A DNA stretch of 39,305 nt from a bacterium (GTDB lineage: Bacteria; Vulcanimicrobiota; Vulcanimicrobiia; Vulcanimicrobiales; SCRA01): positions 1 to 39,305 of the forward strand of contig SCRA01000002.1 in assembly GCA_004297985.1 (NCBI GenBank). The letters run 5' to 3'. Every line of letters starts with the position of its first letter. The first letter of the stretch is position 1. Positions 37,763 through 39,214 of this stretch are shown piece by piece. The position numbers and the translations under genes are program-made. The notes beneath the pieces are model-generated. The model saw only the letters and a list, made by a program, of their open reading frames with translations, searched no databases and was not told the origin of the DNA.

Positions 37763-39214
37763 CTACTTGGCCTCAGCGGCCACCTGCGCCTCGGTCACGG
37801 CGCCGGCCTTGTTGCCCCAGTCGTTCCGAATGTAGGTCACGATGGAGGCGATCTGGGCGTTGGTGAGCTGCCCCTTCCAGGCAGGCATCGCGCCGTTGTA
37901 CGGCTTGCCCTCAACAGTCAGCGGGCCCGTCTTGCCATTGACGACGATGTCGATCACGGCCTTGGGGTCGCCCGTCACGAACGCATTAGCAGCCAACGGC
38001 GGGAACGTTCCCGCGATGCCCGCGCCACTGGCATTGTGGCAAGCGGCGCACTTCTGGAGGTAGATGGTCTTGCCGGCCAGCAGGCTGGTGCCGCCGCCGG
38101 TTGCGGCAACCTTCTCCTCGTGGCTGCAGGCGACGGCGCAGATGCCGACGTTACCGCCGCTCTGTACGGCGGCTTGATTGATCGCCGCCTGTCCGTAAAT
38201 GCCGGTGCCGATGATGAACAGCACGAGGACCACCGTGATGCCCATCAGAGCCGGGCGGCGCGAGATCACGCGCGAGGGATTACGGTCGATCCAGGGCAGC
38301 AGCAGCAGGACGAGCAGGAAGAGCGTCGGGACGACGATCGTCCCCACGACTTCGAGGCTCGGCGGCGTCAAGCGAAGGACACCATACAGCGGCAGGAAGT
38401 ACCAGGCCGGCGAGGGCACGAAGGTCGAGTTGTTGGGATCGGCCTTATTCAACAGCTCCGGCGGAGCGGCGATCGCCAGGATCACCATGATCGCGAAGGC
38501 GGCGACCGAGACAGCCGTGTCCATGAAGAGCTGGTTCGGCCAGAAACGGCCAGGCTTGCGCACGGGCGGCTTGTCGTCGGCCGGGCCCGCCGCACCGTTG
38601 TGACGGAAGATCGTCAGGTGGCCGACGGCCAGCAGCACCAGCAGCGCGGGTACCAGCCAGACGTGTATACCGAAGAAGCGGTTGATGGTGAGCGTGCCCA
38701 TCGAGGGACCGTCTTGCAGGAAGCCCTTTACCCACTCGCCGAGAACGGGCGCGCTGCCGGTGATGTTGATTGACACCTGCGACGCGAAGTAGGCGTTGAG
38801 ATCCCACGGCAAGAGGTAGCCCGTCAAGCCCATCACGAGTGTGAACAGGAAGAGGATCACACCGACGACCCACATGATCTCGCGTGGCCGCTTGTAGGCG
38901 CCCCAGATCAACACTTGCAGCAGGTGGAGGGCCACCAGGGCGATCATCACCGAGGCGCCCCAATAGTGGACGCCGATGACGAACTCACCGAAGTTCACCT
39001 TGTCATAGATGAACTTCGTCGACTCCCAGGCCGTTGCCGCCGACGGTGCGTAGTAGAACGTCAAAAAGATGCCCGTGACGATCTGAATGACGAGCGCGAC
39101 CAAGGTCGCGCTGCCGAAGACGTACCAGTAGCTGGCACCGCCCGGCACGTCTTCCGTCAGGAACGTGTTGATCTGGCCGACGATACCGGTACGTTCCTCG
39201 AGCCACTGTAACAT
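37763..39214 (-). CDS. Fused cytochrome b / cytochrome c subunit of bc-type complex
   Basis: A 483-aa quinol:cytochrome c reductase subunit joining three pieces. Residues 1-210 are a cytochrome b6-like part with heme-b ligands His83/His97 and His184/His199. Residues 225-345 are a subunit IV-like part. Residues about 375-483 are an exported-side cytochrome c with CAACH (389-393) and a candidate Met ligand in GAMPAWKGQ. Fourteen residues separate the second His pair, as in b6. The quinol-oxidation motif reads P-A-W-Y (269-272) instead of PEWY. The linker contains CAVACSH (359-365). AAGGAGG precedes the ATG. An upstream gene fragment (39237-39305) is on the same strand, so it is operonic; a Rieske gene is expected there. 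Confidence 0.93.
   Translation of the reverse strand: MLQWLEERTGIVGQINTFLTEDVPGGASYWYVFGSATLVALVIQIVTGIFLTFYYAPSAATAWESTKFIYDKVNFGEFVIGVHYWGASVMIALVALHLLQVLIWGAYKRPREIMWVVGVILFLFTLVMGLTGYLLPWDLNAYFASQVSINITGSAPVLGEWVKGFLQDGPSMGTLTINRFFGIHVWLVPALLVLLAVGHLTIFRHNGAAGPADDKPPVRKPGRFWPNQLFMDTAVSVAAFAIMVILAIAAPPELLNKADPNNSTFVPSPAWYFLPLYGVLRLTPPSLEVVGTIVVPTLFLLVLLLLPWIDRNPSRVISRRPALMGITVVLVLFIIGTGIYGQAAINQAAVQSGGNVGICAVACSHEEKVAATGGGTSLLAGKTIYLQKCAACHNASGAGIAGTFPPLAANAFVTGDPKAVIDIVVNGKTGPLTVEGKPYNGAMPAWKGQLTNAQIASIVTYIRNDWGNKAGAVTEAQVAAEAK

Follow-up and report, generated by a model that had tools for sequence, protein, structure and literature searches.

The Rieske/cytochrome b-c locus

The window, i.e. 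the whole stretch of DNA analysed, represents one entire contig of 39305 bases, in a genome of 90 contigs that is 96% complete. Next to the contig end lies a gene for a fusion of cytochrome b and a monohaem cytochrome c (Table 1), the 483-residue product of which matched the Pfam profiles Cytochrome_B (PF00033, 4.8e-44), Cytochrom_B_C (PF00032, 2.5e-12) and Cytochrome_CBB3 (2.6e-11). The last 69 bases of the window encode the final 22 residues of a Rieske protein, one residue off the Rieske tail of locus L033, and the sequence AAGGAGGT stands immediately 5' of the cytochrome b-c ATG. With this Rieske tail next to it, the gene belongs to a Rieske/cytochrome b-c operon that the contig end truncates. 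Among relatives, an intact Rieske gene with CPHLxC...CPCHG/N was found directly upstream of cytochrome b-c; its absence from family f3 had been suspected from a strict motif search and was dismissed on reading the proteins.

Table 1. Positions of the genes, motifs and residues discussed, numbered along the window
Feature	Positions	Strand	Basis
Rieske gene, C-terminal end (TAEITWIQYETAVSDRIVIAYS, then stop), cut by contig end	39237..39305	minus	translation
Cytochrome b-c fusion gene, 483 aa	37763..39214	minus	ORF and Pfam; alignment with Nitrospirota homologues and with 48 distinct ones from Eremiobacteria
Cytochrome b part (about residues 1-350) and C-terminal monohaem cytochrome c (about 379-464)	within 37763..39214	minus	
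Qo motif P269-A270-W271-Y272 (CCG GCC TGG TAC)	38399..38410	minus	codon reading
Ala codon 270	38405..38407	minus	
Y133	38816..38818	minus	invariant, 48/48; aligns with Y147 of R. capsulatus and Tyr153 of C. glutamicum QcrB
D138-L139-N140, start of helix cd1	38795..38803	minus	alignment to 8smr; N140 = R. capsulatus M154 position
Helix-B histidines H83 and H97, ligands of haem b	38924..38968	minus	invariant
Helix-D histidines H184 and H199, ligands of haem b with the spacing of 15 seen in cytochrome b6	38618..38665	minus	invariant
Haem c motif C389-x-x-C392-H393	38036..38050	minus	sequence; invariant in 9-row alignment

The four histidine ligands for two b haems (H83, H97, H184 and H199) were all invariant among the 48 aligned Eremiobacteria. 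Residue D138 was likewise kept in 48 of 48, and position 140 was occupied by Asn (41) or Asp (7). The placement of Y133 was based on alignment to solved cytochrome b. The short ef loop appeared, from the alignments, to be devoid of the bc1 H276/D278 stretch. Search of viral contigs for extra alignment rows provided no usable ones, and an AlphaFold model built from nine rows was poor (pLDDT 52.9) and was not used for distances.

Several traits are shared with cytochrome b6f, namely the helix-D histidine spacing of 15, PWD at cd1 and a short ef loop ending in ADP. However, cytochrome b6f is made of two chains (b6 and subunit IV) and carries PEWY and the haem ci Cys35, whereas the PAWY protein is a single chain with Ala at the Cys35 position; neither the split nor the haem ci cysteine of cytochrome b6f was thus found.

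Two further observations concern the locus and its relatives. A cysteine pair (C359/C363) followed by SHE occurs in the linker ahead of the cytochrome c domain (residues 359-365, 38120-38140), a feature of about five of the 48 aligned Eremiobacteria sequences, seemingly those of the window's genus. Two residues past the cluster-loop Ser, the Rieske genes upstream of cytochrome b in L033, L035, L037, L107 and L109 encode either Tyr (GSVY, NSTY) or Phe (GSQF, GSEF). This position is known to tune the Rieske potential, and the Qo motif stayed PAWY regardless of it.

Distribution of alanine in the Qo motif

The sequence-only reading had reported PAWY instead of PEWY at residues 269-272, within the context VPSPAWYFLPLYGVLR, and both motif and context were confirmed; neither the minus strand nor the cytochrome c fusion had been mentioned there. 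Homologues were aligned, as that reading had proposed, and position 270 was Ala in all 53 distinct genes from class Eremiobacteria, encoded by GCC (22), GCG (16), GCA (8) or GCT (7); the PEWY-bearing close relatives named as a possible refutation were not encountered. These 53 proteins, approximately 54-97% identical to the query, came from three families of the class, the gene being carried by three genomes of the same genus, by family f2 of the same order and by family f3 of the same class. The relatives included Candidatus Eremiobacterota MAGs, among them 'Candidatus Eremiobacter'. In the per-column table, which covered 48 distinct proteins, P269, A270, W271, Y272 and F273 were all invariant. 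The alanine is thus real and, in all members examined, fixed in the respiratory cytochrome b of class Eremiobacteria, a class of soil bacteria. The contig was metagenome-assembled and the gene adjoins its end, but a sequencing or assembly error, already disfavoured by the sequence-only reading, is scarcely conceivable in view of an uninterrupted reading frame and of Ala, under all four of its codons, in 53 of 53 distinct relatives. A pseudogene was rejected on the same two observations.

The remaining classes of the phylum had different cytochromes b, or none. PDWY was found in paralogues of some f2 relatives and in L091 of another class, while L093, also from another class, showed PEWY in a split complex. 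No second cytochrome b was found in the window's genome. The idea that another bc complex does the real work was therefore rejected for this genome; the f2 paralogues with PDWY correspond to L099-L102. In the window's genus, L098 (G002:C312) is an additional cytochrome b of split type that has PQWY; its match runs across a TGA stop, and no such gene was found in the window's genome.

Members of the b-c fusion family also occurred in Nitrospirota, the phylum to which L038 belongs and from which 118 genomes were sampled, with PAWY in Leptospirillum-like members and PEWY in others. Like the Eremiobacteria protein, they join cytochrome b and a monohaem cytochrome c in one chain; the b parts are 41-45% identical, and in L038 a Rieske gene lies upstream. 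Nitrospirota PAWY proteins display PWDER at cd1 and Arg at position 80, whereas those of Eremiobacteria have PWD(L/M)(N/D) and Ile, Leu or Met at 80. Loss of Arg80 was considered as a partner of the Ala change and discarded: PEWY Nitrospirota (the L129 group) have lost Arg80 too, and Leptospirillum-type PAWY proteins have kept it. The Nitrospirota combinations PWDER/PAWY versus PWDQ/PEWY give the appearance of a swap of acid positions.

In a tree computed without the trait columns, the PAWY proteins of Eremiobacteria formed one clade and those of Nitrospirota another. Support for a joint clade of both, which bears on one versus two origins within the fusion family, was 59/77. Another Nitrospirota cytochrome b, of 368 residues and PWTQLS type (L185, G208:C31), has PAWY and was nested among PEWY relatives, indicating a separate origin. 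Since L185 lies inside a PEWY group, PAWY most likely arose at least twice.

The acidic Qo residue of PEWY or PDWY is absent from the PAWY protein, in which Pro, Trp and Tyr are retained. The sequence-only statement that nearly all cytochromes b have PEWY or PDWY proved too strong, as PVWY, PLWY, PTWY and PQWY all turned up in this analysis. The 30 best-matching Pseudomonadota proteins, together with a few others, were selected by their match to the PAWY protein and are not a random sample; among them were 17 PVWY, one PLWY and one PTWY. Because such members exist, an acidic residue is not a true criterion for a bc complex; a non-acid at the second Qo place is a known natural state, of which Ala is one more form. 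The solved proteobacterial bc1 complex of Pseudomonas aeruginosa (PDB 8smr) likewise has a non-acid second residue (PVWY). It differs by having Val instead of Ala, and Gly and Met in place of D138 and N140. Proteobacterial bc1 complexes also have a separate cytochrome c1, unlike the fused cytochrome c of the PAWY protein. Kao and Hunte (2014) reportedly assign PVWY to beta- and gamma-Proteobacteria, PPWF to Archaea, and distinct patterns to acidophiles. PAWY by name had no mention in the literature searched, except that the Kao and Hunte 2014 survey may list it (e.g. for Leptospirillum). According to a review by the two authors (PMC9162462), Qo motifs differ systematically from lineage to lineage, quinone and redox potential are correlated with the second residue, and replacement of the motif Glu costs only part of the turnover.

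Quinone and a candidate proton path

Two genes of the MqnA/MqnD type (VitK2_biosynth, PF02621) were detected in each of 21 genomes (the window's genome and 20 relatives), and there was no UbiG match over the cut-off. On this basis, menaquinone is probably the quinone of the organism. Within the same class, Vulcanimicrobium alpinum has menaquinone and a bc complex (PMC9758169); its description gives MK-7 in the table and MK-9 in the text (PMC9758169). A different quinol, such as low-potential menaquinone, had been put forward to account for PAWY. The gene data make menaquinol the most likely substrate. However, menaquinol alone would be insufficient as a cause, since C. glutamicum keeps Asp (PDVY, PMC8795186) and ten PAWY Nitrospirota genomes were devoid of the futalosine marker PF02621, so that the futalosine pathway is not tied to PAWY in Nitrospirota; these genomes could use the classical pathway.

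The complex is most likely functional, as suggested by its four haem b histidines, its CxxCH motif, the Rieske gene directly upstream and its being the only cytochrome b found in the genome. The reading we favour, which appears rather likely, is that an ordinary Q cycle with menaquinol as substrate operates in this sole bc complex found in the genome, the second proton leaving by way of Y133, water and polar residues of cd1. Of the two electrons of menaquinol, one would go, along with a proton, to the Rieske cluster with its His, and one to haem bL. For the second proton, usually assigned to the PEWY Glu, the invariant Tyr133 would act as acceptor together with water; from there this proton may reach D138 and N/D140, polar residues where helix cd1 begins, and then the positive side. 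We infer this path from the invariance of Y133 and D138, from the Asn or Asp found in 48 of 48 proteins at the M154 position, and from precedents in R. capsulatus and C. glutamicum. Both Y133 and D138 are present in PEWY enzymes too and hence are no markers of PAWY. This counts against the favoured reading, as does the apparent lack of the H276/D278 stretch in the ef loop.

The role suggested for Y133 derives from two reports (PMC10583091, PMC8795186). The R. capsulatus single mutant E295V grows and still re-reduces cytochrome c, at 110 versus 380 s-1. The double mutant H276F/E295V is dead, and either M154T or N279S restores it by letting Y147 pass protons to D278; proton transfer was lost only once H276 was removed as well as E295 (PMC10583091). 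In the menaquinol-oxidising C. glutamicum, stigmatellin, a transition-state analogue, is H-bonded to Tyr153 and the Rieske His, and not to the motif acid (PMC8795186). By counting in the aligned chain, Tyr153 belongs to GYSLP, which is the place of Y133. Actinobacterial QcrB (C. glutamicum, M. smegmatis) thus shares menaquinol oxidation and the Tyr of GY.LP with the PAWY protein; it differs by the Asp kept in its Qo motif, a likeness of only about 25-30% and a separate dihaem QcrC. The earlier suggestion that a residue other than the motif acid takes the proton is plausible.

Alternative explanations and significance

Another explanation is a moved acid, in which a carboxylate where helix cd1 begins would have taken over from the PEWY Glu as direct proton acceptor: E139 (of PWDER) in Leptospirillum-like Nitrospirota, and D138 or, in some, D140 in Eremiobacteria. 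Every PAWY Nitrospirota fusion read had PWDER and every PEWY one PWDQ (L112-L141, L162-L181). However, this association is a single event in the tree, without independent repeats, position 139 of Eremiobacteria is Leu, Met or Ser, and D138 also occurs in PEWY enzymes, all of which makes a moved acid rather unlikely.

Adaptation to acid surroundings, where a fixed carboxylate may be unneeded or harmful and water would take the proton, is somewhat less likely still. Leptospirillum is a genus of acidophiles, records of that name are included in the other large PAWY group, and acidophiles are said to have distinct Qo motifs. V. alpinum has its optimum at pH 6 and grows down to pH 4.5, but its range extends to pH 8 (4.5-8, PMC9758169), and the origins of PAWY are few.

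The loss of the textbook proton acceptor could also mean that normal bifurcated quinol oxidation has been given up, the complex working mainly in reverse for example, or being a relic. This is most improbable: the cofactor ligands and the Qo Pro, Trp and Tyr are strongly conserved, the Rieske protein is intact, the complex is the only bc complex found in the genome, and Rhodobacter E295V works (PMC10583091). The sequence-only proposal that the complex works differently found no support.

Returning to proton release through Y133, water and cd1, a broader interpretation may tentatively be offered. In two deep PAWY lineages, the route by which the proton leaves the Qo site on the haem bL side may have been rebuilt around helix cd1, a new acceptor replacing the motif acid. 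The rebuilt exit would comprise Tyr133, D138 and N/D140 in Eremiobacteria, and E139 in Leptospirillum-like Nitrospirota. If true, these enzymes would be natural counterparts of the Rhodobacter mutant-plus-suppressor enzymes. The exit of the second proton from Qo quinol and the need for a motif acid are still debated, and a class with a non-protonatable residue in its main bc complex provides natural enzymes that need another proton route. Residues Y133, D138 and N/D140, together with E139 in Leptospirillum relatives, are named for testing, and the list of Qo motifs is widened past the usually quoted PEWY and PDWY.
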